This document shows, one piece after another, positions 1,221 through 26,465 of a stretch of 33,059 nucleotides of DNA. This DNA comes from Oscillospiraceae bacterium (GTDB lineage: Bacteria > Bacillota > Clostridia > Oscillospirales > Oscillospiraceae), in NCBI GenBank assembly GCA_017482385.1, contig JAFUNI010000009.1, positions 1-33,059 on the forward strand, read 5' to 3'. The translations under genes were made by a program, and so were the position numbers. The notes under the pieces are model-generated. The model saw only the letters and a list, made by a program, of their open reading frames with translations, was not told the DNA's origin and did no database searches. Each line of letters starts with the position of its first letter. Position 1 is the first letter of the stretch.

Positions 1221-1325
1221 GTGAAGAACTACTTTGAAGCTCTGGTCAGAGCCAATTTCCGTTTTGGTCGAATGTATGGCTGTTACCCCCGCATATCCAC
1301 ACTTTATGATCAGAAAGGAAATTGA
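1221..1325 (+). CDS. 34-residue upstream ORF (candidate leader peptide) before metY
   Basis: A GTG-started ORF of 34 codons lies within the metY leader. It is preceded by an AAGGTG Shine-Dalgarno-like sequence at 1207-1212 and its TGA stop (1323-1325) is two bases before the metY ATG (1328). The metY ribosome binding site (AAAGGA, 1314-1319) is inside its last codons, so translation of the two would be coupled. The peptide is rich in aromatic and basic residues, with FRFGRMYGCYPRIS near the middle, including one cysteine. It resembles no peptide I can name with certainty. A role as a sensor of sulfur amino-acid supply (stalling or coupling) is inference from position. The alternative is chance, but start signal, length and exact stop/start spacing argue against it. 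Confidence 0.55.
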   Translation: MKNYFEALVRANFRFGRMYGCYPRISTLYDQKGN

Positions 1326-1327
1326 CT

Positions 1328-2617
1328 ATGTCTAACTACAAATTTGAAACCTTGCAGCTCCATGTTGGCCAGGAGGCTGCTGACCCCGCAACCGATTCCC
1401 GCGCCGTTCCCATTTACGCCACTACTTCCTATGTGTTCCATAACTGCGCTCACGCCGCAGCCCGATTTGGCCTTGCGGATGCCGGCAATATCTACGGACG
1501 CCTTACTAACTCCACCCAGGAGGTTTTTGAGAAGCGCATCGCTGCCTTGGAGGGCGGTGTGGCTGCGCTGGCGGTTTCCTCCGGTGCTGCTGCCATCTCT
1601 TATGTTTTGCAGGCTCTGGGGCAGAATGGCGGCCACTTTGTTGCCCAAAAGACCATTTACGGCGGCAGCTATAACCTGCTGGAACATACACTTCCTAATT
1701 TCGGCATCACCGCCAGCTTTGTAAATATCCATGATCTTGCTGAAGTAGAAAACGCAATTCAAGAGAACACCCGAGCTATCTATATTGAAACCCTTGGCAA
1801 TCCCAACAGTGACATTCCTGACATCGATGCTTTGGCTAGCCTTGCTCATAAGCACGGCCTGCCCTTGGTGGTGGATAACACCTTTGCTACACCTTACCTG
1901 CTTCGCCCCATCGAACACGGCGCAGACATTGTTGTCCACTCTGCCACCAAGTTTATCGGCGGTCACGGCACCACATTGGGCGGTGTTATCGTGGATTCCG
2001 GCAAATTCGACTGGGCTGCTTCCGGTAAGTATCCTGCCATTGCAGATCCTAACCCCAGCTACCACGGTGTTTCCTTTGTAAAAGCCGTCGGCCCTGCCGC
2101 GTTTGTGACCTATATCCGGGCGGTCCTGCTCCGGGATACCGGTGCCTGCATTTCTCCCTTTGCAGCATTTCTGCTGCTGCAGGGCACAGAAACATTGTCC
2201 CTGCGTTTGGAGCGCCATGCGGAAAATGCTAAGAAAGTTGTTCAGTTCCTGGCAAATCACCCTCAGGTGGAGACGGTCAACCATCCCAGCGTGCCGGACC
2301 ATCCCGACCATGCACTGTATGAAAAGTATTTCCCCAATGGCGGTGCATCTATCTTCACCTTTGAGATCAAGGGCGGCGTGAAAGAGGCGCACAAGTTTAT
2401 CGACAGCCTGCAGATTTTCTCCCTCCTTGCCAACGTGGCGGATGTGAAGAGCTTGGTGATCCACCCGGCTACCACTACCCACAGCCAGCTGACGGAAGAA
2501 GAACTGCTGGACCAGGGCATAAAGCCTAATACCATCCGTTTGTCCATCGGCACGGAGCATATTGACGATATTCTTGCCGATCTGCAACGCGGTTTTGACG
2601 CAGTAAAGGAGGTATAA
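1328..2617 (+). CDS. metY: O-acetylhomoserine aminocarboxypropyltransferase (sulfhydrylase), MetY-like
   Basis: This 429-residue PLP enzyme belongs to the Cys/Met metabolism family and is expected to make homocysteine from O-acetylhomoserine and sulfide in the cytoplasm. Visible motifs are the TLQLHVGQ N-terminus, YGRLTNSTQ, the PLP phosphate-binding region around VSSGAAAI, the [11 protein letters not shown] segment with the cofactor-contacting aspartate, and [10 protein letters not shown], whose lysine (about K208) would form the Schiff base. Length fits the MetY branch (about 430) rather than the shorter MetB/MetC enzymes (about 380). I chose ATG 1328 because AAAGGA sits 8 bases upstream; a TTG two codons earlier has worse spacing. 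cysK starts 2 bases after the stop, so both genes are co-transcribed and cover sulfide fixation into homocysteine and cysteine. Confidence 0.92.
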
Positions 2618-2619
2618 TT

Positions 2620-3552
2620 ATGGCTAACATTTACACTTCTGCCGACCAACTGATTGGAAAAACGCCCCTTTTGGAGCTGACCCACATTGAAAAAGAATTT
2701 AATCTGAAAGCAACGATCCTTGCTAAATTGGAGTATTTTAACCCCGCAGGCTCCGTTAAGGACCGGATTGCCAAGGCGATGATCGATGATGCGGAAAGCA
2801 CCGGCAAACTGAAGTCTGGCAGCGTGATCATTGAGCCAACTTCCGGCAACACAGGCATTGGATTGGCTTCTGTGGCTGCTGCAAGAGGCTACCGGATTAT
2901 CATCGTTATGCCCGACACCATGAGCGTGGAACGTCGGCAGTTGATGAAAGCCTACGGCGCAGAGCTCGTACTGACCGAAGGTGCGAAGGGTATGAAAGGT
3001 GCTATCGCAAAAGCTGAAGAACTGGCAGCGGAGATTCCGAACAGCTTCATTCCCGGACAGTTCACAAATCCTGCGAACCCTGCTGTTCATAAGGCAACCA
3101 CTGGTCCGGAAATCTGGGCGGATACCGATGGCAAGGTAGATATCTTTGTTGCCGGTGTCGGCACCGGCGGTACTGTTACCGGTGTTGGCGAATATTTGAA
3201 GAGCCAAAATCCTGCTGTAAAAGTCGTAGCAGTAGAGCCTGCTGGCTCGCCGGTTTTGAGTAAGGGTACGCCTGGCACCCATAAGATCCAGGGCATCGGC
3301 GCAGGCTTTGTCTCTGCCGTGCTGAACACCGGTGTCTATGATGAGATCATCACCGTGGAAAATGAGGATGCCTTCGCCACCGGAAAGCGGATCGGCAAAT
3401 CTGAAGGTGTTTTGGTGGGTATTTCCTCCGGCGCTGCTGTTTGGGCTGCTATAGAGCTGGCAAAGCGGGAGGAAAACACCGGTAAGACCATTGTCGTCCT
3501 CCTGCCTGATATTGGCGACAGATATTTGTCCACCCCACTTTTTAACGACTGA
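2620..3552 (+). CDS. cysK: Cysteine synthase A (O-acetylserine sulfhydrylase)
   Basis: This 310-residue PLP enzyme of fold type II converts O-acetylserine and sulfide to cysteine. The N-terminal [11 protein letters not shown] motif carries the Schiff-base lysine (K47), followed by [11 protein letters not shown], the substrate-loop signature, and by [13 protein letters not shown], the glycine-rich loop that grips the PLP phosphate. The C-terminus keeps LVGISSGAA and [11 protein letters not shown] as in bacterial CysK. Length matches the family. The start is set by an excellent AAAGGAGG 7 bases upstream of the ATG. It follows metY by 2 bases in one operon, and a stem-loop at 3559-3591 separates it from the transporter gene. 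Nothing in the protein suggests a cystathionine beta-synthase or cysteate synthase. Confidence 0.95.
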
Positions 3553-7159: not shown

Positions 7160-8533
7160 ATGAAGATTGATGAGATTTTGCAAAAGCAGCGCTCCTACTT
7201 TCAAAGCGGCGCAACTCTGCCGGTAAGTTTTCGGATTGCCATGCTGAAAAAGCTGTTGGCGGCAGTTAATAAGTATGAAAAGCATATCGGCGAAGCACTG
7301 ACCGCCGATCTGGGCAAGAGTGATTTTGAAGGCTTTATGTGCGAGACCGGTCTTGTGCGCAGCGAGATCAGCTATATGATTAAGCATGTCCGTTGCTATG
7401 CAAAAGAAAAGACGGTCTATACGCCCATTACCCAGTTCGCTTCCCGCAGCTATGTGAAGCCTTCGCCTTATGGCAATGTACTGATCATGAGCCCCTGGAA
7501 CTATCCGTTCCTGCTGACTATGAATCCTCTGGCGGATGCCATTGCGGCAGGTAATACAGCTGTGGTCAAGCCCAGCGCCTATTCTCCTGCTACCAGCGCT
7601 ATCATCGAGAAGATCATTACCGAATGTTTTGATCCTCAGTATGTGGCAGTGGTAACCGGCGGCAGAAAAGAAAATGCTGCCCTGCTGGAACAGAAGTTTG
7701 ATATGGTGTTCTTCACCGGCTCTCAGAGCGTGGGCAGGGAAGTGCTGCGGCATACTGCTGAAACCTTGACCCCTGCGGTGCTGGAACTGGGCGGCAAGAG
7801 CCCCTGCATCGTGGACAGCAGTGCCAAGATCAAATTGGCTGCAAAAAGAATCGTATTCGGTAAGTTCCTGAACTGCGGACAGACCTGTGTGGCGCCGGAC
7901 TATATCCTCTGCCACGAAAGCGTGAAGGACGAGTTGATCGCGGAACTTCGTAAGCAGATCGGAAAGCAGTACGGTGAGAATCCGCTTTGCAACCCTGACT
8001 ACGGCAAGATCGTCAACCAAAAGCATTTTGACCGCATCAAGGGGCTGATCGCCCCCAACAAGGCCGTCATCGGCGGCAAATGGAACGAGGACACCTTGCA
8101 GATTGCGCCTACTGTTTTGAGTGATGTCACTTGGGACGACGCAGTGATGCAGGAGGAGATTTTCGGGCCTGTTCTACCCATTCTGACTTACAAGAATTTA
8201 GAAGAAGTATATGCTATGCTGGCAAATAAAGCGAAGCCTTTGGCACTGTATATTTTCTCCGAGGACAAAAAGGTCATCCGTGATGTGACCCAGCGATGCC
8301 GCTATGGCGGTGGATGTGTCAACGATGTGGTCATCCATCTTGCTACTTCCAACATGGGCTTCGGTGGTGTTGGTGAAAGCGGTATGGGCTCCTACCATGG
8401 CAAAACCGGGTTTGATGCCTTCAGCCATACCAAATCCGTTCTGGATAAGAAGACCTGGATGGATCTTCCTATGCGGTACCAACCCTACAAGCGCGGCCTA
8501 TACGGCAAGTTGCTGCACTTCTTCCTGAGATAA
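7160..8533 (+). CDS. Aldehyde dehydrogenase, ALDH3-like
   Basis: At 457 residues this is the short ALDH3 type rather than the usual 490-residue ALDH2 type. Motifs are the oxyanion region MSPWNYPFLLTMNPLADAI, KPSAYSP for NAD(P) binding, FTGSQSVGREV, the general-base glutamate in LELGGKSP, and the active-site cysteine C243 in NCGQTCVAPDY. EEIFGPVLPIL and GESGMGSYHGK complete the family pattern. The C-terminus ends with MRYQPYKRGLYGKLLHFFLR, a basic-amphipathic tail; mammalian ALDH3A2, the fatty aldehyde dehydrogenase, also carries a C-terminal membrane segment. This suggests fatty aldehydes as substrates, but it is inference. It sits 3 bases after the alcohol dehydrogenase, with GGAG overlapping that stop, and 23 bases before a DegV gene. 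Confidence 0.9.
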   Translation: MKIDEILQKQRSYFQSGATLPVSFRIAMLKKLLAAVNKYEKHIGEALTADLGKSDFEGFMCETGLVRSEISYMIKHVRCYAKEKTVYTPITQFASRSYVKPSPYGNVLIMSPWNYPFLLTMNPLADAIAAGNTAVVKPSAYSPATSAIIEKIITECFDPQYVAVVTGGRKENAALLEQKFDMVFFTGSQSVGREVLRHTAETLTPAVLELGGKSPCIVDSSAKIKLAAKRIVFGKFLNCGQTCVAPDYILCHESVKDELIAELRKQIGKQYGENPLCNPDYGKIVNQKHFDRIKGLIAPNKAVIGGKWNEDTLQIAPTVLSDVTWDDAVMQEEIFGPVLPILTYKNLEEVYAMLANKAKPLALYIFSEDKKVIRDVTQRCRYGGGCVNDVVIHLATSNMGFGGVGESGMGSYHGKTGFDAFSHTKSVLDKKTWMDLPMRYQPYKRGLYGKLLHFFLR

Positions 8534-8556
8534 ATTTGAGAAAGTGAGATGTAAAA

Positions 8557-9423
8557 ATGAACGAGTATATTATCTTTACCGATTCCTGCTGTGACATTAA
8601 GCCTGAGCTGCTGCAACAGTGGGGCGTACCCTATGCCAATATGACCTTTTCTTTTGACGGAGAGGACAAGGAATATATTGGCACCGATATTTCTAACAAA
8701 GAATTCTATGAGCGTATGCGTCAGGGTGCTTGTGCCAAGACCGCAGCGATCAACGCAGATGCCTTCGCCCGTGCCTTCATGCCGATTTTAGAAGAAGGCA
8801 AGGACATCCTCTATGTGGCGTTTTCCTCCGGCCTGAGTACCACATTCAATTCGGCCCACATGGCAGCAGAAGAACTGAGGGAGCAATATCCGGACCGGAA
8901 AATTGTCATTGTGGATACGTTAGCAGCTTCTGCCGGCAGCGGTTTGATGGTGTATATGGCAGTTGCCAAGAAAAACGAAGGTGCTTCTTTGGAGGAGAAT
9001 GCTGCCTATATCGAATCTCTGACTTCTCAGCACTGCATTTGGTTTACCGTAGATGATCTGGAATACTTGAAGCGCGGTGGCCGTGTCAGCCCTCTGGTTG
9101 CCTTTGCAGGCGGTGTGCTTGGAATCAAGCCGGTGCTGCAGATGGACAGCGAAGGTCATCTGATCAAGGTCTCCACTACCCGTGGCAGAAAGAAGGCTAT
9201 TGAAGCACTGGCAGATAAGTATGCTGAGCTGTCCTACGAAGAGAAGAATACGCCTGTTTTCATTTCCCATGCCGAGTGCGAGGAGGACGCAAAGCACTTA
9301 ACAGAAATTCTGTTGCAGCGCCACGGAGTCAAGGTGACTTTAATTACAGAAATCGGCCCGGTCATCGGCTCCCACGCGGGCCCCGGCACTCTTGCAATCT
9401 TCTTTATCGGTAAGCATAGATAA
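8557..9423 (+). CDS. DegV/FakB-family fatty-acid-binding protein (first copy)
   Basis: The 288-residue protein has the DegV fold: N-terminal IIFTDSCCDIKPELL, the loop FSSGLSTTFNSAHMAAEEL, the VDTLAASAGSG segment, and the C-terminal domain with DDLEYLKRGGRVSP and IKPVLQMDSEGHLI, both family hallmarks. DegV proteins bind one fatty acid in a deep pocket; the characterised members (FakB) present it to the kinase FakA to make acyl-phosphate for lipid synthesis. No fakA is in the window, so the kinase would be elsewhere or the protein has another job. It lies 23 bases after the aldehyde dehydrogenase, so an acid released by that enzyme could be taken up directly; this is inference. The second copy follows after 123 bases. 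Confidence 0.92.
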   Translation: MNEYIIFTDSCCDIKPELLQQWGVPYANMTFSFDGEDKEYIGTDISNKEFYERMRQGACAKTAAINADAFARAFMPILEEGKDILYVAFSSGLSTTFNSAHMAAEELREQYPDRKIVIVDTLAASAGSGLMVYMAVAKKNEGASLEENAAYIESLTSQHCIWFTVDDLEYLKRGGRVSPLVAFAGGVLGIKPVLQMDSEGHLIKVSTTRGRKKAIEALADKYAELSYEEKNTPVFISHAECEEDAKHLTEILLQRHGVKVTLITEIGPVIGSHAGPGTLAIFFIGKHR

Positions 9424-9546
9424 CATAGGAACTTGCGGTAGAGTCGTATTTCTACCCACAAGAGAGTCCAAATCCCTGTAGTAGGTGGAAAACTGCCTGC
9501 TGAAATGATACCCTAAGTTAGAAATCGAAAGGCAGGTATATTACCT
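9424..9546 (+). promoter_or_regulatory. Leader between the two degV genes with hairpins and a maskable ribosome binding site
   Basis: The gap holds a 6-bp hairpin (GGTAGA / TCTACC, about 9437-9458), then AGAGAGT and GGTGGAAAACTGCC stretches that recall part of a T-box stem I. CTGCCT in the middle can pair with AGGCAG just before the start, and AGGTA-TAT-TACCT forms a palindrome next to the ATG. Either would hide the ribosome binding site. There is no TGGNACCGCG antiterminator, so this is not a complete T-box. Confidence 0.3.
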
Positions 9547-10383
9547 ATGAGAACTGTAAAAATTGTTGCGGATTCCTCCGCGAATTTGATGGAATTAAAG
9601 GCCGTCGCATTTGACGCGGCACCGCTGAAGATCATTACCGGCCAGCGGGAATTTGTGGACGACCGGAATCTGGATTTAGAGGAAATGATTCGATTCTTCA
9701 AATCCTACAAAGGAAGATCTCAAAGCTCTTGCCCCAATCCCGAGGATTGGCTGAAAACCTTTGGCGATGCAGATGATGTTTTCTGTGTTGCCATTACCAG
9801 CGGTCTGTCCGGCAGCTATAATGCTGCCTGTATTGCAAAGGATATGTATGAAGCGGAGCATCCCGGCAGACGAGTCTTTGTGATCGACTCTCTTTCTGCC
9901 GGTCCGGAGCTGACACTGATCGTAGAAAAGTTGGAAGAGCTGATTGTCGCAGGAAAGTCCTACGAAGAGATCTGCTCTTACATGCCGGAGTATCAAAAGA
10001 AGACCGGACTACTATTCATGCTGGAATCTCTCAATAACTTTGCGGCCAATGGCAGAGTTTCTCCGGCTGTCGCTAAGATCGCCGGCGTTCTGGGCATTCG
10101 CATTGTAGGCAAGGCCAGCGATGCAGGCACTTTAGAGCCTACAGATAAGTGCAGGGGCGAGGCAAAATCCTTGAATACGATTCTTAAGCATCTGAAGGAT
10201 AGCGGCCTCAAGACCGGCAAGGTGCAGCTGGCGCACTGCCAAAACGAATCCGCTGCCAATACACTGAAAAGTATGATCGAGACAGATCTGCCGGGCGTGA
10301 CCGTGAAGATCGGTATCAATCTGGGCCTGTGCAGCTTCTACGCAGAAAAGGGCGGCCTGCTGGTTGGCTTTGAAAAGTATTAA
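9547..10383 (+). CDS. DegV/FakB-family fatty-acid-binding protein (second copy)
   Basis: This 278-residue DegV protein is clearly diverged from its neighbour. It keeps the N-terminal KIVADSSANL, the ITSGLSGSYNAACIAKDMY loop, VIDSLSAGPEL, and the C-terminal LNNFAANGRVSPAVAKIAGVLGI where the first copy has LEYLKRGGRVSP. The family normally has the start TDS; here ADSSAN is the equivalent. Two FakB-type proteins in one bacterium usually differ in preference for saturated or unsaturated fatty acids, so different acyl chains may be delivered to the downstream acyltransferases. Its own leader contains structure that could hide the start site. The next gene begins 4 bases after its stop, making a tight pair with the condensation-fold acyltransferase. 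Confidence 0.9.
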   Translation: MRTVKIVADSSANLMELKAVAFDAAPLKIITGQREFVDDRNLDLEEMIRFFKSYKGRSQSSCPNPEDWLKTFGDADDVFCVAITSGLSGSYNAACIAKDMYEAEHPGRRVFVIDSLSAGPELTLIVEKLEELIVAGKSYEEICSYMPEYQKKTGLLFMLESLNNFAANGRVSPAVAKIAGVLGIRIVGKASDAGTLEPTDKCRGEAKSLNTILKHLKDSGLKTGKVQLAHCQNESAANTLKSMIETDLPGVTVKIGINLGLCSFYAEKGGLLVGFEKY

Positions 10384-11671: not shown

Positions 11672-11681
11672 GGTGTGTGGT

Positions 11682-12374
11682 ATGTATTGCGTAAATTGCG
11701 GTGTCAAGCTTGCTGACACGGAGGAGAAGTGTCCTTTATGCAACACGGTACCTGGGGAACCTCTCAATAGAAGAGAACCGGCGAGAGCATTATATCCCAA
11801 AAACCGTTATCCCGAAGTAACTGTAAAACCCAGCGCGGTTAACAGTACGATCCTTGTCTTGTTTTTGATACCACTGCTTGTTACATTTTTCGTGGACCTG
11901 CAAACTGGGCAGAAGCTGGATTGGTTCTGGTATGTGGCCGGAGCGCTTGTGCTGGCGTATGTTGTACTTGCGCTGCCGATCTGGTTTCGAAAGCCAAATC
12001 CCGTGATTTTTGTCCCCTGTGATTTTGCCGCATCGGCACTGTATTTACTGTTGATCAATCTGCTGACAGGAGGCAAATGGTACTTAAGCTTTGCACTCCC
12101 GGTGACCGTGAGTGTTGGCCTGATCGTAACCTCAGTGGTGGTACTGCTGCGGTACTTGCAAAAAGGCAGATTGTACATTTTTGGCAGCGCGATCATTGCC
12201 ATGGGCACGGTGATGCTTCTGGTGGAGTGGCTGCTGTCGGTAACATTCCACATTGCGTTTGTGGGTTGGTCAGTGTATCCGCTGATCGTGTTTGTGCTGC
12301 TGGGTGGATTACTGATCTTCTTGGCTATTAACAGCTCTGCCCGGGAAAGAATGGAGAGAAAATTCTTTTTTTAG
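11682..12374 (+). CDS. Zinc-ribbon membrane protein, DUF6320-like
   Basis: This 230-residue protein begins with a zinc ribbon (CVNCGVKL at the start, CPLCN about 16 residues later), a short basic linker, and six hydrophobic helices (about residues 48-66, 75-97, 104-123, 130-154, 163-188 and 196-218) before a basic tail. The ribbon would face the cytoplasm. I recall a family of this layout named DUF6320 next to alcohol-acetyltransferase-like genes, which is the arrangement here; its function is not known. ATG 11682 has GAGGTG about 7 bases upstream. A second zinc ribbon occurs in the DedA-PlsC fusion of the same island. The next promoter starts at the base after its stop, so this is probably the last gene of the MarR-led operon. 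Confidence 0.65.
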   Translation: MYCVNCGVKLADTEEKCPLCNTVPGEPLNRREPARALYPKNRYPEVTVKPSAVNSTILVLFLIPLLVTFFVDLQTGQKLDWFWYVAGALVLAYVVLALPIWFRKPNPVIFVPCDFAASALYLLLINLLTGGKWYLSFALPVTVSVGLIVTSVVVLLRYLQKGRLYIFGSAIIAMGTVMLLVEWLLSVTFHIAFVGWSVYPLIVFVLLGGLLIFLAINSSARERMERKFFF

Positions 12375-12403
12375 TTGGCAAATATCAGCGCATCCTTTAT
12401 AAT
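12375..12403 (+). promoter_or_regulatory. Promoter of the SPT-like/SDR pair
   Basis: TTGGCA (12375-12380), a 17-base spacer and TATAAT (12398-12403) lie directly after the previous stop codon. A single, near-consensus promoter would start RNA near 12410, about 32 bases before the SPT-like start codon. No palindrome like the MarR operators is visible here. Confidence 0.75.
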
Positions 12404-12441: not shown

Positions 12442-13617
12442 ATGGACATCTTTGAAAAATGCAGAAAACGCGGCATGGTACACGAAGTAAGAGAAAAGGG
12501 CATATATCCTTACTTCCACGCGCTGGAGAGCCGCCAGGATGTTGAGGTCATTATGGAAGGCAAACGCCGCATTATGCTTGGCTCTAACAATTACCTGGGT
12601 CTGACCACACAGCCGGAGGTTGTGGAGGCCGGCATAAAAGCTTTGGAACAGTACGGTACCGGCTGCTCCGGCTCCCGTTTCCTCAACGGCACTTTGGAAA
12701 TGCATCTGGAGTTGGAGTGGGAGCTGGCAGCATTCCTGAAAAAGGAGGCAGTGATAACCTTTTCCACCGGCTTCCAGTCCAATCTTGGCATCATCAGTGC
12801 CATTGTCGGTATGGGCGACTATGTCATTTTGGACCGGGAGAATCACGCATCCATTTATGATGCCTGCCGCTTGAGTTATGGAAAAATGCTCCGCTTCAAG
12901 CATGCAGATATGGCAGATTTGGAAAAGAAGCTCCAGGAGGTGCCGGAGAACAAGGGCTGCTTGATCGTCACGGACGGTGTGTTTTCCATGGGTGGCGATA
13001 TTGCCAAGCTTCCGGAGATCTGCGCCTTGGCGAAGAAATACGGTGCCCGTGTGATGGTGGACGATGCCCATGGCCTCGGCGTGATTGGCGAAGGCGGCAG
13101 AGGCACTGCCAGCCATTTCGGTCTGGAGGATCAGGTGGATATTTATATGGGTACCTTCAGCAAGTCCCTTGCCTCGTTGGGCGGCTATATGGCAGCCAGT
13201 GCAGAGGTGGTGGACTATGTGAAGCATGCGTCCCGGCCCTTTATCTTTTCCGCGTCCATTCCACCGTCATCCTGTGCAGTCGCGTTGGCATCCCTTCGTT
13301 ATATGAGATCCCATCCGGAAATCGTGCAGAAGTTGGCTGACAATAGCTCTTACTTCCGCAACGCCTTGAAAACCAGAGGTGTTCGGATCATTGAATCCAC
13401 CACTCCTGTGGTACCCATCTACACATACGAGGCATTTAATACATTGGAAAAGACCAGAAAGGCTTACGATGCAGGTGTCTATGCCAATCCTGTGCTTCCT
13501 CCTGCCTGCGCTCCTAATGAGTGCCTGATCCGCACAAGCCTGATGGCAGCACACACTTATCCGCTTCTGGATGAAGCTGCGGATATCCTAGCTGCGGTGA
13601 TGAACGATGAAAACTAA
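12442..13617 (+). CDS. Serine palmitoyltransferase-like alpha-oxoamine synthase
   Basis: The 391-residue PLP enzyme is of the alpha-oxoamine synthase family (SPT, KBL, BioF, ALAS), which joins an amino acid to an acyl thioester with loss of CO2. Several stretches look like Bacteroides-type SPT rather than KBL or BioF: YPYFHALESRQD near the start, GTGCSGSRFLNGTLEMHLELE, GVFSMGGDIAKLPEI, DDAHGLGVIGEGGRGT, MGTFSKSLASLGGY with Schiff-base lysine K241, and ANPVLPPACAP close to the C-terminus. Expected product is 3-ketosphinganine from serine and palmitoyl thioester; alanine, glycine or cysteate as amino acid cannot be excluded. It has its own promoter, and overlaps the SDR gene by 11 bases, so the two are translated together. 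BioF is less likely because no other biotin gene is near. Confidence 0.82.
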   Translation: MDIFEKCRKRGMVHEVREKGIYPYFHALESRQDVEVIMEGKRRIMLGSNNYLGLTTQPEVVEAGIKALEQYGTGCSGSRFLNGTLEMHLELEWELAAFLKKEAVITFSTGFQSNLGIISAIVGMGDYVILDRENHASIYDACRLSYGKMLRFKHADMADLEKKLQEVPENKGCLIVTDGVFSMGGDIAKLPEICALAKKYGARVMVDDAHGLGVIGEGGRGTASHFGLEDQVDIYMGTFSKSLASLGGYMAASAEVVDYVKHASRPFIFSASIPPSSCAVALASLRYMRSHPEIVQKLADNSSYFRNALKTRGVRIIESTTPVVPIYTYEAFNTLEKTRKAYDAGVYANPVLPPACAPNECLIRTSLMAAHTYPLLDEAADILAAVMNDEN

Positions 13618-14401
13618 AGTTGCAATCGTAACTGGCGGCAGTTCCGGAATAGGCCGCTGCACCGCAATTGCTCTCAGTCAGGCCGGATGCAAGGTTTATG
13701 AATTCAGCCGTAGAAACAATGCGATTGACGGAGTGATCCATATCGGTGTTGATGTGACAGACGAAAACAGTATTGCCACTGCTATTGATCAGATAACCGC
13801 TGATAACGGACGAGTTGATATCTTGGTTAACTGCGCAGGTAACGGTATTTCCGGTGCGGTGGAGTTCACGGAACTCAAAGATGCCAAAGCACAGTTTGAA
13901 GTGAATTTCTTCGGCATGGTTAATATGAACAAGGCTATATTGCCCGTTATGAGGCAGCAAGGGCTCGGAAAAATTGTAAATATTAGTTCCGTTGCCGCAG
14001 TTGCACATATTCCGTTCCAGACCTACTATTCCGCATCTAAAGCAGCTATCGAATCCTATACCTGCTGTCTTGCGAATGAAGTCAAGCCATTTGGTGTATC
14101 TGTAACCTGTGTTCAGCCTGGGGATATTGCTACAGGCTTTACACAAGCTCGCCGCAAATCGGCTGTGGGAGATGATGTGTACCACGGTCGAATTTCCAGA
14201 AGTGTTGCCGGTATGGAAAAGGACGAGCAAAACGGTATGAGACCGGAGACTGCAGGTAAGTATATCGCTAAGATTGCACTTAGAAAGAATGTAAAGCCGA
14301 TCTACACCTTGGGCATGGGGTATAAGTGTCTGAGTGTACTGTGCAAAATTCTTCCTTGCCGCCTGCGAAACTGGATAGTTGGAATGCTGTATGCACGATG
14401 A
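13607..14401 (+). CDS. Short-chain dehydrogenase, candidate 3-ketosphinganine reductase
   Basis: This 264-residue SDR has the NAD(P) loop TGGSSGIG, NCAGNG, the catalytic serine in NISSVAA, and Y141-x-x-x-K145 (YSASK). After the catalytic core it has a basic and hydrophobic C-terminus (YKCLSVLCKILPCRLRNWIVGML) that could sit in the membrane surface, as in 3-ketodihydrosphingosine reductase and other lipid-acting SDRs. Its coding region overlaps the SPT-like gene by 11 bases, which makes reduction of that enzyme's keto product the natural reading. It is followed by a perfect terminator, so SPT-like and SDR form a two-gene transcription unit. Other SDR substrates (for example 3-ketoacyl thioesters or steroids) cannot be ruled out from sequence. 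Confidence 0.8.
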   Translation: MKTKVAIVTGGSSGIGRCTAIALSQAGCKVYEFSRRNNAIDGVIHIGVDVTDENSIATAIDQITADNGRVDILVNCAGNGISGAVEFTELKDAKAQFEVNFFGMVNMNKAILPVMRQQGLGKIVNISSVAAVAHIPFQTYYSASKAAIESYTCCLANEVKPFGVSVTCVQPGDIATGFTQARRKSAVGDDVYHGRISRSVAGMEKDEQNGMRPETAGKYIAKIALRKNVKPIYTLGMGYKCLSVLCKILPCRLRNWIVGMLYAR

Positions 14402-14427
14402 CCGGTAAGATAATAAACGAAATAATC

Positions 14428-14456
14428 AACAAAGGCGGCGTTTGGCCGCCTTTGTT
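14428..14456 (+). terminator. Terminator of the SPT-like/SDR unit
   Basis: AACAAAGGCGGC (14428-14439) and GCCGCCTTTGTT (14445-14456) form a perfect 12-bp stem with a 5-base loop, ending in a T-rich stretch. Confidence 0.88.
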
Positions 14457-14468
14457 ACTTACGAAATA

Positions 14469-14497
14469 TTGAAATGGTATTATTCCTGTGGTAAACT
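14469..14497 (+). promoter_or_regulatory. Promoter of the plsY unit
   Basis: TTGAAA (14469-14474), a 17-base spacer and TAAACT (14492-14497) precede plsY by about 44 bases. Confidence 0.55.
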
Positions 14498-14540: not shown

Positions 14541-15152
14541 ATGGCATATTTCGTTATGTGTATAATTGGATATTTGCTCGGCTGCTCCAATCTGGCCTTT
14601 CTTCTTGCTAAAGCAAAGGGCGTTGATTTGGCAGGGGGAGGAAGTGGAAATCCCGGCGCATCCAATGTAACGATTCTGATGGGATGGCGTCTCGGCATTC
14701 TTGTCGCTGTTCATGACGCGGGGAAGGCGTTACTTGCCGTTATCTTGGCTAAAGTATTGTTTCCGGACACGAATGGTATTGCGGTGGTCGCTGGTGCTTC
14801 CTGCGTCTTAGGTCATATCTTCCCGATGTTTTTGAAATTCAAGGGCGGCAAAGGATTTGCGTCTTACATAGGAATGATACTGGCACTGAACTGGAAATTT
14901 GCCTTGATCATATTGGCTGCTGTGATCGTGATCACGATCGTTTTGGACTATTTGGTGCTTGGTACGACCTTTACAGTCATTAGTCTTCCGGTTTATCTAA
15001 TGGTTACCTCTGCCGGTTGGGTTGCGATTACTGCCGCCTGCATTGCAACTGTGGTAATCATTGCGAAACACAACGTCAACTATGTTCGCATATGGAAAGG
15101 AACAGAGATCGGCTTACGCTCTACTATGAAACGAGAACATCGGGTTAAATGA
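14541..15152 (+). CDS. plsY: Acyl-phosphate:glycerol-3-phosphate acyltransferase, PlsY family
   Basis: This 203-residue integral membrane protein carries the three PlsY signatures: GSGNPGASNV near residue 35, KFKGGKGFASYIG in the middle, and HNVNYVRIWKGTE near the C-terminus. Five hydrophobic helices are visible. PlsY moves an acyl group from acyl-phosphate to sn-1 of glycerol-3-phosphate, the first step of phospholipid synthesis in most Gram-positives. The acyl-phosphate can come from FakA/FakB, which ties it to the two DegV proteins upstream. The middle motif VHDAGKALLAV departs from the usual DxLKG form, so this may be a second, specialised PlsY rather than the housekeeping copy; the genome would have to be checked. 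GGGAGG lies 8 bases before the ATG. Confidence 0.85.
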   Translation: MAYFVMCIIGYLLGCSNLAFLLAKAKGVDLAGGGSGNPGASNVTILMGWRLGILVAVHDAGKALLAVILAKVLFPDTNGIAVVAGASCVLGHIFPMFLKFKGGKGFASYIGMILALNWKFALIILAAVIVITIVLDYLVLGTTFTVISLPVYLMVTSAGWVAITAACIATVVIIAKHNVNYVRIWKGTEIGLRSTMKREHRVK

Positions 15153-21587: not shown

Positions 21588-22982
21588 ATGGCGACAATTG
21601 TTAAGCGAGGAAAAAATTTCTATGTAGTTTTTCGCTATGATGACGCGAACGGTAATTCCCAGCAAAAATGGGAGTCGTTTAAGACCAAGAAGGAAGCCCA
21701 AAAGCGTAAAAGCGAGGTCGAGCATGAGATCGACACTGGTACATTTATTCCACCCGCCAGCATAAAGATCAAGGATTTTCTCGTTGATTTTGTGGATATG
21801 TATGGCAAGCGGAAGTGGGGGTTGTCTATGTACACCTCCAATTCGGGACTAATCCGGAATTATATCAACCCCGTTTTGGGTGAGGTAAACGTTCAGGATG
21901 TGGATGCCCGGGTGGTGGACAAGTTTATTGCCACATTGCAGAAAACCAAAGCGGTGGACTGCAACGGAAGAAGGGCAAAAACGGAGTTTGTCACCCCGTG
22001 TACCATTGAGAAGATCTGTAAGCTGATGCGTTGCGCGTTTGGACAGGCAATCCGCTGGGGTATGGTTGGCAGAAATCCCTTTATTGGCGCGACCCTTCCC
22101 AAGAGGGAACAGAGGAAGCGCGCCATATGGGATGCAGAGACCATTCGTAGGGCGCTGGATGCCTGTGAGGATGACCGTTTGTACTTAGCTATCCATCTTT
22201 CCTTTGCCTGTTCTCTTCGCTTTGGGGAGATCTGTGGGCTCACATGGGACTGTCTGGATGTTTCCGATGCGGCTATCGCCAGTGGCAATGCCTATCTAAA
22301 GGTTGAGAAGGTGTTGGCCCGTGTGGACGAAGGCGCAGTTGATGCGCTGGGAGAGAATGACATATTCTTTACTTTCCCGGCTGTTGTTAACGGAAAGTCC
22401 AAGACCCGGCTGGTTCTGAAGAAGCCTAAGACCGAATCCAGTATCCGCAAGGTGTGGATCCCGGTGACTCTTGCCAAGCTGCTGAGAGCCTGGAAGGAAA
22501 GTCAGGACAAGGCAAAGGCCTACTTAGGGGATGCCTACTACGATTACAACCTGGTGCTCACCCTTGATAATGGACGGCCTTGTGAGGATCGGGTGATCGG
22601 CAATGCCTTCAACCGACTCAAAAGGAACGCAGACCTTCCGGATGTGGTCTTTCACTCTCTCAGGCACTCCAGCACGACCTATAAGCTGAAGCTGAACCAC
22701 GGAGACATCAAGGCAACACAGGGCGATACGGGCCACGCACAGCCTGACATGGTCACTGAGGTTTACGCCCACATTCTGGACGAAGACCGCAAGGTCAATG
22801 CCCAGCGCTTTGAGGCAGGCTTCTATTCGAGGGCTGATCTGCGTGGACTGGAGCAGTCATTCCGCACGCAACCCGTGCAACAGCCGGGAATGGATATCGT
22901 GCAGCTGCTCGTTCAGCTGCAGCAAAATCCGGCACTGTTGACCCTTCTGAATGGGCTCGCGAATGCAAATGTGTCCGGATAA
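21588..22982 (+). CDS. int: Tyrosine recombinase / integrase
   Basis: The 464-residue protein is an element-type tyrosine integrase. It has an N-terminal arm-binding domain (KRGKNFYVVFRYDDANGN, about residues 1-55), a SAM-like core-binding domain (about 60-165) and the catalytic domain. Catalytic residues seen are R211 in SLRFGEICGL, H356 and R359 in HSLRH, H383 in GHAQPD and the nucleophile Y393 in VYAHILD. A polar tail rich in Q follows. AAAGGAG lies before the ATG. The stop is 185 bases before a tRNA-Arg(CCU) 3'-half sequence, the expected attachment site for this enzyme class. It is most simply read as the right-end gene of an element lying to the left of that site, not of the parA element to the right. 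Confidence 0.93.
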   Translation: MATIVKRGKNFYVVFRYDDANGNSQQKWESFKTKKEAQKRKSEVEHEIDTGTFIPPASIKIKDFLVDFVDMYGKRKWGLSMYTSNSGLIRNYINPVLGEVNVQDVDARVVDKFIATLQKTKAVDCNGRRAKTEFVTPCTIEKICKLMRCAFGQAIRWGMVGRNPFIGATLPKREQRKRAIWDAETIRRALDACEDDRLYLAIHLSFACSLRFGEICGLTWDCLDVSDAAIASGNAYLKVEKVLARVDEGAVDALGENDIFFTFPAVVNGKSKTRLVLKKPKTESSIRKVWIPVTLAKLLRAWKESQDKAKAYLGDAYYDYNLVLTLDNGRPCEDRVIGNAFNRLKRNADLPDVVFHSLRHSSTTYKLKLNHGDIKATQGDTGHAQPDMVTEVYAHILDEDRKVNAQRFEAGFYSRADLRGLEQSFRTQPVQQPGMDIVQLLVQLQQNPALLTLLNGLANANVSG

Positions 22983-23006
22983 TCCCAAACCGTTCAAAAC
23001 CGTCTG

Positions 23007-23037
23007 TTAGCAAAAATGCGATTTTGTTAGCAAAAAT
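23007..23037 (+). repeat. Integrase arm-type repeats, left of the attachment core
   Basis: TTAGCAAAAAT occurs at 23007-23017 and 23027-23037, 20 bases apart. The same TTAGCA motif recurs right of the core at 23315-23369, as expected for arm sites bound by an integrase N-terminal domain. Confidence 0.55.
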
Positions 23038-23044
23038 TCAAAAA

Positions 23045-23100
23045 AGTGTTCGAATCCATTTGGCAGCCCATAAGAGCTGCGGCTGCCAAATGGAAACACT
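23045..23100 (+). terminator. Long hairpin after int
   Basis: CCATTTGGCAGCC (23056-23068) and GGCTGCCAAATGG (23081-23093) form a perfect 13-bp stem, extended after a bulge by AGTGTT/AACACT. There is no strong T run, so it may be a terminator or a structural att-region element. Confidence 0.6.
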
Positions 23101-23133
23101 CTGACAATTTAATAATGGGACAAATAGTTATGA

Positions 23134-23167
23134 AAACACCGTGATTTACGGTGAAATCACGGTGTTT
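23134..23167 (-). terminator. Perfect hairpin directly beyond the tRNA-Arg fragment, likely tRNA terminator
   Basis: AAACACCGTGATTT (23134-23147) and AAATCACGGTGTTT (23154-23167) are a perfect 14-bp inverted repeat. Read on the minus strand it starts at the CCA end of the tRNA fragment and ends in TTTTC, the usual place for the terminator of a tRNA gene. Confidence 0.7.
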
Positions 23168-23211
23168 GGCACCCCCGGCGAGACTCGGACTCACTACCTC
23201 GCGCTTAGGAG
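23167..23211 (-). other. 3' half of tRNA-Arg(CCU): attachment-site core
   Basis: On the minus strand these 45 bases parse exactly as the tRNA 3' half: anticodon loop CTCCTAA (anticodon CCT), stem GCGCG, variable loop AGGTA, T arm GTGAG-TCCGAGT-CTCGC (five pairs, one G-U), acceptor CGGGGGT and GCCA. The 5' half is absent: the bases to the right do not pair with these arms. The T loop has C where T is nearly always found, fitting a non-functional copy. This is the usual core duplicated by tRNA-targeting integrases. The missing 5' half means the DNA to the right is element DNA, and an intact tRNA-Arg should exist at the other end. Confidence 0.8.
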
Positions 23212-23314
23212 TTTAGAAGTCACTTAAAACCGGAGTACACCGATGTTTCCTTAAATGCACTAAAACCCTTGTGGCGCAAGGCTTTTTGGACTTTCTGAGT
23301 TTCCTACTGTTTCA

Positions 23315-23369
23315 TGCTAAATTTGCTAATATCACGCCGTTCAGCGGTTTCTATTAGCAAAAAATTAGC
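23315..23369 (+). repeat. Arm-type repeats, right of the attachment core
   Basis: TGCTAA at 23315 and 23324 (reverse complement of TTAGCA), TTAGCAAAAAA at 23354-23364 and TTAGC at 23365 match the TTAGCAAAAAT boxes left of the core. The 342 bases from 23212 to 23553 hold no gene; besides these repeats they carry two GAAC-N3-GTTC palindromes and parA promoter sequences. Confidence 0.5.
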
Positions 23370-23386
23370 GCTGGGGCGGTTTTTAG

Positions 23387-23448
23387 GAACAACGTTCAAC
23401 TGAAAAAGTGAACATAGTTCCCCCGTGTATCCTTTAGTATAGTTGACA
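23387..23448 (+). promoter_or_regulatory. Paired GAAC-N3-GTTC palindromes and promoter region of parA
   Basis: GAAC-AAC-GTTC (23387-23397) and GAAC-ATA-GTTC (23410-23420) start 23 bases apart, about two helical turns, upstream of the parA gene. TATAGT at 23438 and TTGACA at 23443 are nearby promoter-like hexamers; which are used is not clear. The pair suggests an operator bound by a dimeric repressor of the element. Confidence 0.45.
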
Positions 23449-23553
23449 TTCTTAATAAAATCAAGAGGTTTGTTGCCCCCAGCTTACATAGCTTACATAG
23501 CCGTCCACCGGAAAACCGATGGGCGGCTAATTCTATGTAAAGGAGGAAACCCA

Positions 23554-24375
23554 ATGGCGAAAACCAAAGTAATTGCCGTAGCCAACCAAAAGGGCGGCGT
23601 AGGAAAAAGCACCACGGTGTATAACCTGGGTGCCGGTCTTGCGCTTAACGGCAAAAAGGTCTTGCTTGTGGATGTTGACCCGCAGGGCGACCTAACCAAG
23701 ATGTTGGGACAGAGAAAGCCGCATGATCTGCCGCTGACCCTTGCGAACTGCATGAACGATGTGGTGGCTGGGGTCGGCGGCAATGAACACCCGGAGATTA
23801 TGCACCATCACGAAGGCTTTGACTTTGTACCCGGCAACCGTAGCTTGTCGGCGGTGGAAATCGGGCTTGTGAATGTTATGAGCCGAGAAACTGTACTGCG
23901 CCAGTACATCGACAGCGTAAAGCGCGATTACGATTATGTGTTGCTCGATTGCCGTCCCTCCCTTGGTATGCTGGTCATCAATGCGCTTGCCGCGTCGGAT
24001 CATGTGCTGATTCCCGTGCAGGCGGATTATCTGGCAGCCGAGGACATGACGGAACTGCTTGGCACGGTGCGGCAGGTCAAACGGCAGATCAACCCTAAAC
24101 TGCAAGTCGGCGGTATCTTTTTGACAATGGCGAATGAAACCAATTTTCGCAAGGATATTGTCGCCACCGTCAAGGAGAACTACGGAAAGCATTTTCCCGT
24201 GTTGCAGACGGTCATTCCCGCAACCGTGCGGCTTGCCGAGATCAGCACCGCAGACAAGAGCATTTTTAAGCATGAGCCAAACGGAAAAGCCGCCCAAGCC
24301 TATGGCAGTCTGGTAAAGGAGGTGCAGAGCATTGGCGAAAAACAGCGCAGCAAGCCTTCTGACATCAGTAGATGA
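23554..24375 (+). CDS. parA: ParA-family partition ATPase of the conjugative element
   Basis: This 273-residue ATPase has the deviant Walker A box KGGVGKSTT (lysines at both ends) close to the N-terminus, Walker A' LLDCRPSLG, and the ADYLAAEDMTELL and TMANETNFRKDI regions typical of Soj/ParA proteins. In integrative conjugative elements ParA helps keep the excised circle in the cell or aids transfer. ATG 23554 is set by AAAGGAGG 8 bases upstream; the longer frame from 23443 would start inside promoter sequence. parB starts within its 3' end (44-base overlap), so the two are made together. Two palindromes at 23387-23420 probably regulate it. Confidence 0.92.
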   Translation: MAKTKVIAVANQKGGVGKSTTVYNLGAGLALNGKKVLLVDVDPQGDLTKMLGQRKPHDLPLTLANCMNDVVAGVGGNEHPEIMHHHEGFDFVPGNRSLSAVEIGLVNVMSRETVLRQYIDSVKRDYDYVLLDCRPSLGMLVINALAASDHVLIPVQADYLAAEDMTELLGTVRQVKRQINPKLQVGGIFLTMANETNFRKDIVATVKENYGKHFPVLQTVIPATVRLAEISTADKSIFKHEPNGKAAQAYGSLVKEVQSIGEKQRSKPSDISR

Positions 24376-25288
24376 ACTGTTCACGACTCAAGAGGAACGG
24401 GACGAAGCCAAGAGCGAAAGAATCGTAAAACTTCCGCTGGATGAAATCAGCGATTTTCCAAACCACCCTTTTAAGGTGCGTATGGATGACTGCATGATGG
24501 AAATGGTGGAAAGCGTGAAGGCCCACGGCGTACTTGTTCCTGCCATTGTTCGTCCTAACCCGGACGGTGGCTATGAAATGATCGCAGGACACCGGCGAAA
24601 ACTGGCAAGCAACCTTGCCGGACAGATGGAAATGGATTGTATCGTCCGTAATCTTACCGACGATGAAGCCATTATCATTATGGTCGATTCCAATTTGCAG
24701 CGCGACCAAATCCTGCCCTCCGAGAAAGCGTTTGCTTATAAAATGAAGCTGGATGCTATGAAACGGCAAGGTCAAAGAACGGATTTAACTTCTGACCCAC
24801 TGGGGCAGAAGTTAAAAGGGGTCGTATCGGTGGAACAGCTTGCCGCAGACGCTCCCGACAGCAAGACCCAAATCCAGCGATTTATCCGTTTGACCTATCT
24901 TATCCCGGAGCTTTTGGAAATGGTAGATAATTCTGTCCTTAAAGATAAGGAAATAAAGCAGATCGCTTTGCGGCCTGCCGTGGAACTGTCCTACCTTTCC
25001 GAAAACGAACAGCGGCTTGTGCTTGATACCATTGACTTGGAGGATTGCACACCGTCCCATGCCCAGGCAATCCAAATGCGCGCGGCTTCAGAACGGGGCG
25101 AACTGACGGAAGAAACGATCCTGTCCCTCATGCAGCAGGAAAAGCCTAACCAAAAGGAGCAGTTTCGTATGCCACGAGAAAAAATCAACCGCTTTTTTGC
25201 GCCGGGGACGCCCGCGCAGAAGATCGAGGACACCATTATCAAGGCTTTGGAGCTTTATCGGAAAAGACAACGCGAACAGCAGCGATAA
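24332..25288 (+). CDS. parB: ParB-family partition protein of the conjugative element
   Basis: The 318-residue protein has the ParB N-terminal domain: DEISDFPNHPFKVRMDD, GVLVPAIVRPNPDGGYEMIAGHRRKLAS (with the GHRR CTP-binding motif) and DSNLQRDQILPSEKAFAY, then a helix-turn-helix core (VSVEQLAADAPDSKTQIQRFIRLTYLIPEL). The C-terminus has a basic REKINRFF segment and a predicted helix. ParB binds parS near its own genes; no classical parS is visible, so the element may use another centromere. It starts with TTG at 24332, justified by AAAGGAGGTG 7 bases upstream. The 197 bases after it hold no convincing gene. Confidence 0.9.
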   Translation: MAKNSAASLLTSVDELFTTQEERDEAKSERIVKLPLDEISDFPNHPFKVRMDDCMMEMVESVKAHGVLVPAIVRPNPDGGYEMIAGHRRKLASNLAGQMEMDCIVRNLTDDEAIIIMVDSNLQRDQILPSEKAFAYKMKLDAMKRQGQRTDLTSDPLGQKLKGVVSVEQLAADAPDSKTQIQRFIRLTYLIPELLEMVDNSVLKDKEIKQIALRPAVELSYLSENEQRLVLDTIDLEDCTPSHAQAIQMRAASERGELTEETILSLMQQEKPNQKEQFRMPREKINRFFAPGTPAQKIEDTIIKALELYRKRQREQQR

Positions 25289-25485
25289 CCCACTAACAAG
25301 GGGTCAGTGCGCCCATTTTAAGGACGGGAACGGCGGTGCTTCGGCGGCTCCCCCTCTCCACACCTCACCCCCTCAAAACCTTGCTGTACCAGCCGAAAAA
25401 AGAGTATTTGCAGTCGGCTGTATGTCGCACCTTTGCGTCAATCGACAGTTTTCGGTAAACTGAAAGCGCAAAGGAGGTTTTGCAC

Positions 25486-26382
25486 ATGAGAAAATTGTTA
25501 GTAATCATCGCTATGCTGCTTGTTCTACTGACGGGCTGTAATCGCAATTCGACGGAATTGAATAGCGGATCGGAAAGCACGGCGGTATCCACCGTGTATG
25601 AAACGATAGAGGAAAGCCACGACACCGCGCCCACGGATACAAAATCTGCGGAAGATGCGGATGAAACCCTGCCTTCTTTTTCGGCTGGTAATGAAACCAC
25701 CGAGGAAACCGAGCCTACCGTAGAAAGCACAGAGGAAAGTACAGCGGCTACCCAGCCACAGAAGACCCCTGTGCAGGAAACTACGCAGACAACGGAGCCG
25801 GTGCAGACAGATCCTCCCGAAACAACAGCACCTATAGCCACAGAACCACCGCAGACCGAAACGACCGAGCCTGTTACTACAACAGAGCCGGAAGAAACCG
25901 AAACCATTGAAACCACCGAGCCACCCCGCTTGGCGCAGGCTGATAGCTATGAGGTTGCCGCATTGGTCGCACAGTATGTTAATCAATACCGCAGCACACC
26001 GGCGACCATTCTGCCGGGACTTGGCGAGGTAGCGACCTACCGCGCAAATCAGCTTATCAGCAATTTCTCACATGCAGACAGCGCAACCGTCTGTACTGCG
26101 CTCCAGTACGGTGAATTTGTGGATATGACCTTGTATGGATGCCCGGAAAGCTCCAATTATTATCAAGGCTATAACCGCGAAGCCATTGCTAAAGGTAACT
26201 GGACAGGTACGGCTGATGATCTCGCCCAGCGCATCGTCACCGGCTTTAAGAACAGTGCAAAGCATTGGGCGTATGTCGGCAGCGATGAATACGGCTATAT
26301 GGCTGTGGGTGTTGTCTATGACCCCTCCAACTCCACATGGTACTGCTGCATCTGCATGAGCAGTAAGAACTACGGTGGCTGA
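25486..26382 (+). CDS. CAP-domain surface lipoprotein with Thr/Glu/Pro-rich stalk
   Basis: The 298-residue protein begins with a lipoprotein signal peptide (KLLVIIAMLLVLLTGC, lipobox LTGC with Cys18). Residues about 20-150 are a low-complexity stalk of Thr, Glu and Pro (repeats such as TTEPVQT and ETTEP), likely to span the cell wall. The C-terminal 145 residues look like a CAP/SCP domain (YEVAALVAQYVNQYRSTPA, YRANQLISNFSHADS, WAYVGSDEYGYMAVGVVYDP), a fold found in secreted bacterial proteins of varied function. It lies just before the giant adhesin and is probably an exposed part of the element's donor-cell surface. AAAGGAGG precedes ATG 25486; a TTG two codons earlier is less likely. A strong terminator follows. 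Confidence 0.82.
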   Translation: MRKLLVIIAMLLVLLTGCNRNSTELNSGSESTAVSTVYETIEESHDTAPTDTKSAEDADETLPSFSAGNETTEETEPTVESTEESTAATQPQKTPVQETTQTTEPVQTDPPETTAPIATEPPQTETTEPVTTTEPEETETIETTEPPRLAQADSYEVAALVAQYVNQYRSTPATILPGLGEVATYRANQLISNFSHADSATVCTALQYGEFVDMTLYGCPESSNYYQGYNREAIAKGNWTGTADDLAQRIVTGFKNSAKHWAYVGSDEYGYMAVGVVYDPSNSTWYCCICMSSKNYGG

Positions 26383-26403
26383 AACTGAATACTCCCCACA
26401 CAC

Positions 26404-26438
26404 AGAACGCTTGAAAAACCAAGCGTTCTTTTTTTATT
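26404..26438 (+). terminator. Terminator after the CAP lipoprotein gene
   Basis: AGAACGCTTG (26404-26413) and CAAGCGTTCT (26420-26429) form a 10-bp stem followed by seven T. The adhesin gene begins 28 bases later, so it needs read-through or a promoter not identified here. Confidence 0.9.
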
Positions 26439-26465
26439 TCTTGATTTGAAAGGATGGATAACCCT

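Follow-up and report, generated by a model that had tools for sequence, protein, structure and literature searches.

Organization of the locus

The window, i.e. the whole stretch of DNA analysed, is the entire contig C30 (33,059 bases) of an Oscillospiraceae bacterium genome of 35 contigs and 2.39 Mb, listed with a completeness of 95.1% and a contamination of 1.8%. Two overlapping genes on its forward strand are the subject of this work, and the features in and around them are as follows.

8557..9423, + strand: DegV-family protein, distantly FakB1-like (TIGR00762 above cut-off; 120 bits with the FakB1 model, which requires 350)
9547..10383, + strand: second DegV-family protein, a neighbour upstream of the pair
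12375..12403, + strand: promoter-like site TTGGCA-17-TATAAT (11 of 12 consensus positions)
12442..13617, + strand: predicted serine palmitoyltransferase (SPT)-type alpha-oxoamine synthase (AOS), 391 aa, ATG start (best matches to SPT, tree, residues)
13607..14401, + strand: SDR, 3-ketosphinganine-reductase-like, 264 aa, ATG start (best NCBIfam model KdsR NF049977)
14427..14457, + strand: terminator-like hairpin after the SPT-SDR pair (scan, and fold of 14402-14475 at -23 kcal/mol, z -4.1)
14541..15152, + strand: PlsY-like glycerol-3-phosphate acyltransferase, a neighbour whose cluster has as its only other member L001, the window's own copy

Both ORFs exist as the original prediction described them, and the 11-base overlap that it reported between SPT and SDR, which includes the stop codon, is borne out. 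A promoter and a terminator belonging to the pair had also been claimed. The promoter-like site holds up, with its 11 of 12 consensus positions and its place between the stop of the ORF at 11673-12374 and the ATG at 12442; since shuffled sequence would give 5.8 sites where the scan returned 4 in 4 kb, this call rests on place and quality and not on number. The hairpin is a likely terminator but not a clean one, because the scan scores it on the minus strand only and the T-run of the + strand lies inside the stem. Compared with its counterpart at L003, the SPT gene differs in 37/13/218 places at codon positions 1/2/3 over 391 codons; it is under purifying selection.

At a distance from the pair, window positions 21588-31157 encode a tyrosine-type integrase with an Arm domain, ParA/ParB homologues and a protein of 1567 aa in which ten SpaA-type matches occur; an integrative element may have one of its ends here.

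The PLP enzyme falls within the SPT clade

Among the NCBIfam models the PLP enzyme scores best with SPT of the CFB type (NF047600, 524.8 bits), followed by TIGR01825 (397.0), SPT-beta (396.8), KBL (385.8), BioF (371.8) and ALAS (249.1). The curated cut-off of NF047600 is 640, which the enzyme misses and which is reached in none of 200 genomes of its family; we accordingly describe the protein, from its sequence, as placed in the SPT clade and outside the curated equivalog. Its best PDB match is the SPT of S. multivorum (E 1.5e-125, 422 bits), followed at lower scores by a bifunctional BioF/KBL (273 bits), the best KBL entry (250 bits) and the cysteate acyltransferase 28eh (238 bits). The identity to the S. 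multivorum enzyme, which is a solved SPT, is 50% over 382 residues, so the SPT fold of the PLP enzyme is not in doubt. The three sequence blocks quoted in the original prediction as shared with Bacteroides SPT are all found in the window (GTGCSGSRFLNGT, GVFSMGGDIAKLPEI and NPVLPPACAP). Two of them have the S. multivorum counterparts GTGCAGSRFLNGT and GIFSMEGDIVNLPEL, and the third, which reads NPVVSPAVPA in that enzyme, is only partly alike.

For the phylogeny, 147 sequences were thinned to 54, and 53 rows were left after removal of one long Streptomyces row; the rows include neither ALAS nor SulA, both of which are judged from scores only. The PLP enzyme lies within an SPT clade (support 100/99) alongside the SPTs of S. 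multivorum, S. paucimobilis and Bacteroidota, and this clade excludes the KBL, BioF and TIGR01825-type rows, the support covering the clade and not the order within it. Among the Bacteroidota rows, B. finegoldii is above the SPT cut-off and the S. multivorum enzyme has a solved structure; the remaining three are SPTs by similarity only. The PLP enzyme belongs to a 24-row subclade (100/98) in which one row is from Chloroflexota and the others are from Bacillota.

The AOS core residues N49, H135, D207, H210, K241 and R364 are invariant in all 109 window-type rows; they are common to SPT, KBL and BioF and do not discriminate among them. Ten further columns were chosen as conserved in the window-type rows, common to the Bacteroidota SPTs and rare in KBL/BioF, and five of these (G47, N82, S242, A271 and L362 in window numbering) recur in both of the two S. 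paucimobilis-type SPTs, while column selection in the reverse direction, as a control, yielded two columns. Position by position, the window residues are SPT-like and not KBL/BioF-like at 29 positions, with the reverse at 4. A second AOS gene of the genome, on contig C16, scores 627 bits with a KBL model (cut-off 460). Its partner in the tree is E. coli Kbl, and this genome therefore already has a gene for the KBL role. Placement inside the KBL or BioF clades, the outcome that the original prediction had named as speaking against it, was looked for and is not what the clade support, the residue count and the separate genomic KBL indicate. KBL, BioF and SulA identities were rejected on the tree, the residues and the scores, and by ancestry, as judged from these comparisons, the PLP enzyme is an SPT.

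Distribution of the clostridial SPT

Scanning a single genome of each species gave 117 places; 80 of them were retained, with 75 in Bacillota/Clostridia-type records and five in Chloroflexota or Anaerolineaceae. The titles of 29 of the 80 loci mention an animal or gut site, and 18 further titles carry the label RUG, which we take to stand for rumen. The three closest SPTs, 91-92% identical, come from bins of deer colon and goat rectum that carry the title Oscillospiraceae, which suggests a gut member of Clostridia as the host of the window. One carrier, Lachnospiraceae bacterium C6A11 (L058), has a strain name and no metagenome label and is presumably a cultured rumen isolate; its SPT is 70% identical to that of the window, and its KdsR-like SDR scores 212 bits. 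The names of the nearest relatives suggest that the host of the window is Gram-positive.

Three samples of genomes, each counted with the window's own genome included, show how far the enzyme extends. In the family sample SPT is present in 69 of 200 genomes at 484 bits or more, and the next full-length protein stands at 349 bits, which sets the SPT matches apart as a separate score class; four of the 69 matches hold one internal stop, and SPT fragments occur at contig edges in four family genomes. The order sample has SPT in 41 of 295 genomes (E 1e-130 or better), spread over 11 families, ten of them besides that of the window, with Bacteroides ihuae as the sole positive among 14 control genomes. 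At the phylum level 20 of 398 genomes score at least 525 bits, with further families of the phylum among the carriers, and the match that follows has 430.

Two observations touch on carriers further afield. The Chloroflexota/Anaerolineaceae bins at L070-L074, two of them titled goat gut, have the same overlapping SPT-SDR pair with an SPT about 71% identical to that of the window, which would be explained either by transfer of the pair across phyla or by mis-binning in all five bins. A plasmid of Priestia megaterium (CP109762, L104) encodes an SPT-like protein that reaches 522 bits against the SPT-CFB model and whose gene adjoins a methyltransferase and an acyltransferase and has no SDR annotated within 4 kb.

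The SDR and its linkage to SPT

The SDR finds its best NCBIfam model in KdsR NF049977, which it matches with 243.3 bits over profile positions 2-267 of 267, below the curated cut-off of 400; the next best SDR in the window's genome scores 84 bits with this model. It is plausible from the sequence that the protein works like a 3-ketosphinganine reductase, although it is not filed as a member of NF049977. In an alignment of 55 SDRs, residues T9, G10, G14-I15-G16, S127, Y141 and K145 are kept in 97% or more of the sequences, and N100 is also conserved; a Prevotella SDR, the 56th, served for comparison and did not enter the count; the GxxxGxG cofactor motif and the S-Y-K motif are general SDR features. 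The KdsR model is of low specificity, being matched at E 1e-35, by E-value only, in 9 of 14 control genomes including E. coli and B. subtilis. It may not stand for the Bacteroides enzyme either, because the Bacteroides ihuae control genome stays short of E 1e-35. SDRs of the f31 type score higher with PRK06182 than with KdsR. The Prevotella SDR, which is among the top plasmid matches, had first been taken as a KdsR reference and was discarded; it scores as PRK06182.

Since the KdsR model also matches SPT-less controls, it is gene linkage and the within-family contrast that tie the SDR to SPT. A stretch of 900 nt or more is available downstream of SPT in 76 of the 80 loci, and in 54 of these 76 the SDR is the next gene on the same strand. 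The other 22 are without an adjacent same-strand SDR. In family f31 SPT and SDR are convergent, and a non-adjacent SDR can sit on another contig, as in G004, G041, G420 and the genome of L058. The presence of an SDR in a genome was taken as a KdsR-like match of at least 160 bits, and the SDR was re-tested by BLAST. By this measure 69 of 69 SPT genomes in the family sample have the SDR against 17 of the remaining 131 (Fisher P 7e-38, kinship ignored). Two of those 17 hold SPT fragments, and with edge fragments counted as SPT the SDR is found in 71 of the 73 family genomes that have SPT. Beyond the family, 18 of 19 SPT genomes have it against 1 of 19 hand-chosen SPT-negative genomes, four of which are from SPT-carrying families (kinship again ignored); the nineteenth SPT genome, G536, has a 152-bit partial SDR match with a stop. 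The dedicated reductase of the original prediction is thus favoured by the full-length best model, by linkage and by co-occurrence, while the model's low specificity counts against it.

No conserved third gene was found beside the pair, the gene clusters spanning 96 loci for SPT (the window and the KBL locus L002 included), 59 for SDR and 9 for the next. The PlsY-like gene is a neighbour, with no evidence of membership in the pair. In 14 of 100 loci there are DegV genes no more than 8 kb from SPT; they number 15, against 2.6 expected at the density of the window's genome, and some of the loci are relatives or share a contig. They occur near SPT in the window (8557-10383) and at L005, L021, L027, L036, L063, L155, L158, L159, L163, L164, L167, L171, L172 and L173. 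These neighbours are enriched and not conserved, and a part for them in acyl supply could be considered as a lead only. Among the f31 loci (L155-L159), a gene of one cluster adjoins the SDR at L155, L157, L158 and L159; its L155 member matches OmpH with 27.9 bits, under the Pfam cut-off of 32.4, which is a faint hint at an outer membrane.

Proposed pathway and alternative readings

We propose, with a probability of about 0.75, that SPT and SDR are encoded as one operon and carry out the two opening steps in the synthesis of long-chain bases, a PLP-dependent condensation followed by a reduction by the SDR. The PLP enzyme would condense an L-amino acid, most likely serine and possibly alanine, with a long-chain acyl thioester, perhaps an acyl-ACP, and the condensation would proceed with loss of CO2 to a 3-ketosphinganine-type base. 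The product of the overlapping and presumably co-transcribed SDR gene would then reduce the 3-keto group with NADPH to give a sphinganine-type base, which may in turn be built into a membrane lipid. The order of steps would be that of Bacteroides, with reduction followed by N-acylation, and not N-acylation by bCerS followed by reduction by CerR. Against the pathway reading, both proteins score below their curated equivalog cut-offs (525 vs 640 and 243 vs 400 bits).

Other assignments of the PLP enzyme would change its amino acid or its acyl substrate. An SPT that prefers alanine (or glycine), with which the pair would make 1-deoxysphingoid bases instead of sphinganine, is improbable: every SPT core residue agrees with the S. 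multivorum SPT, a serine user, even though none of the tested residues separates serine from alanine use and Spt with alanine is discussed as a source of 1-deoxyceramides in the available text of PMC11334938. Much harder to sustain is a SulA-type cysteate acyltransferase, which would make the pair a route to capnine-type sulfonolipids and the SDR a 3-ketocapnine reductase. The SPT-like fold and core residues of SulA, and the sulfur amino-acid-type PLP enzymes (Cys_Met_Meta_PP, PALP) at window 1322-3552, would suit such a route, but the position of SulA Lys281 is Ala271 in the PLP enzyme and Ala in 108 of the 109 window-type rows, and 28eh is matched far below the S. multivorum SPT. We give still less credence to KBL, BioF or another short-chain AOS standing beside an unrelated SDR. 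Membership in the same superfamily, the KBL and BioF scores (386 and 372 bits) and the four window positions that side with KBL/BioF against Bacteroidota SPT could be cited for it; it is excluded by the tree, the genomic KBL is a different gene, and Sm position 364, an Arg in 16 of 16 KBL/BioF-type rows, is Leu362 in the window.

A further alternative leaves the PLP enzyme as SPT and concerns the SDR, which might not be a 3-keto reductase and might act elsewhere, for example on a 3-oxoacyl or other carbonyl substrate, its linkage having another reason. Its score under the cut-off, the KdsR matches in the control genomes, and its presence in family genomes without an SPT-class match (17 of 131, two with SPT fragments) are all compatible with this. 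The co-occurrence figures (69/69 and 18/19) are not readily explained in this way, and neither is the retention of both genes in the same genome through tandem, convergent and other-contig arrangements; we consider this alternative about as unlikely as the alanine-preferring SPT.

Later steps and implications

A bCerS-like model (A1) was built from two rows, the GNAT proteins adjoining SPT in Rubrobacter and Aureispira, which we take to be bCerS from their gene order and protein family. With this two-row model no bCerS-like GNAT was found in the window's genome at E 0.01. In the family sample such a protein occurs in 6 of 200 genomes at E 1e-20, four of them among the 69 SPT genomes (65 of the 69 being without), which is no association (P 0.18). 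In the phylum sample outside the family, at E 1e-30, it turns up in 17 of the 19 SPT genomes (six families), compared with 42 of 378 SPT-less ones, and both misses among the 19 are f34. At L184 a bCerS-like GNAT gene (7839-8981) follows six pyrimidine biosynthesis genes, which leaves its role unsure, and a second, at L185 (6885-8012), has the same layout, the first of the L185 pyrimidine genes having been scanned. bCerS was rejected as the missing N-acylation step, as model A1 found none in the window's genome and the L184 gene comes after pyrimidine genes. The statement in the original prediction that the pair would imply sphingolipids goes beyond the data: no bCerS-like protein was found in the genome with this model.

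The sphingolipids of gut bacteria are generally ascribed to Bacteroidota. Sphingolipid detection is largely limited to Bacteroidota and certain alpha-Proteobacteria according to the available text of PMC10191378, and Gram-positive carriers of SPT have already been predicted in print, in the text accessible to us. The accessible part of PMC11334938 predicts Spt-like genes in several Black Sea phyla, Chloroflexota among them, and its main text, to the same extent, is without the words Firmicutes or Bacillota. In the literature searched, whose coverage is incomplete and which is not proof, no statement was found of Clostridia carrying SPT or making sphingolipids. COG0156 is the group used for counting 'spt' in the accessible text of PMC12816596, and counts made on this basis could mix the window's SPT clade with KBL and BioF. 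What we predict from the sequences is a new, widespread lineage of SPT with a likely reductase in Clostridia, the enzyme types themselves being already known.

A broader proposal, which we offer tentatively and at somewhat less than even odds, is that a broad group of gut and rumen Clostridia makes sphinganine-type or 1-deoxy bases by means of the pair, that these are finished by a novel N-acyltransferase or left as a new class of amino-lipid, and that some of the sphingolipids now attributed to Bacteroides are theirs. Bacteroides may not be the sole gut bacteria able to start the sphingolipid pathway. If about one third of a clostridial family can start it, the source and amount of gut sphingoid bases and their effects on the host need to be revisited. 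With the N-acylation step missing, a new enzyme can be searched for directly.

Comparison with known systems

The Spt-bCerS-CerR cluster of Rubrobacter begins with an SPT of the same clade as that of the window. In Rubrobacter, Spt is followed by a GNAT and an epimerase-type protein, presumably bCerS and CerR in view of gene order, whereas the window's SPT is followed by an adh_short SDR; a relative of the Rubrobacter GNAT was not found in the window's genome with model A1 (E 0.01). SulA, the cysteate acyl-ACP transferase (PDB 28eh), resembles the PLP enzyme in fold and core residues, and the position of its Lys281 is proposed, in the available text of PMC9304779, to tell sulfonolipid from sphingolipid enzymes. 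The window has Ala271 there and a far lower score with 28eh than with the S. multivorum SPT (238 vs 422 bits), and SulA-type cysteate use by the PLP enzyme appears unlikely from these comparisons.

The 3-ketosphinganine reductase of Bacteroides is BT_0972 (PMC9278070, available text). By its description BT_0972 is, like the window's protein, an SDR with GxxxGxG; the window SDR matches the KdsR profile over its full length, the C-terminus included, and differs from NF049977 members in scoring 243 bits where the cut-off is 400. The SPT of S. multivorum and Bacteroides (NF047600; PDB 3a2b) is distinguished from the window's enzyme by its scores, the B. finegoldii row reaching 700 bits against 525 for the window (cut-off 640), and by the window's position in a separate 24-row clade (100/98) together with its pairing with an SDR; among the genes annotated within 3-4 kb of the Parabacteroides and B. 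finegoldii SPTs there is a diacylglycerol kinase but no SDR. The two are alike in sequence, with 50% identity to 3a2b and 46-49% to the four Bacteroidota rows, in all PLP and carboxylate residues, and in their membership of the same SPT clade.
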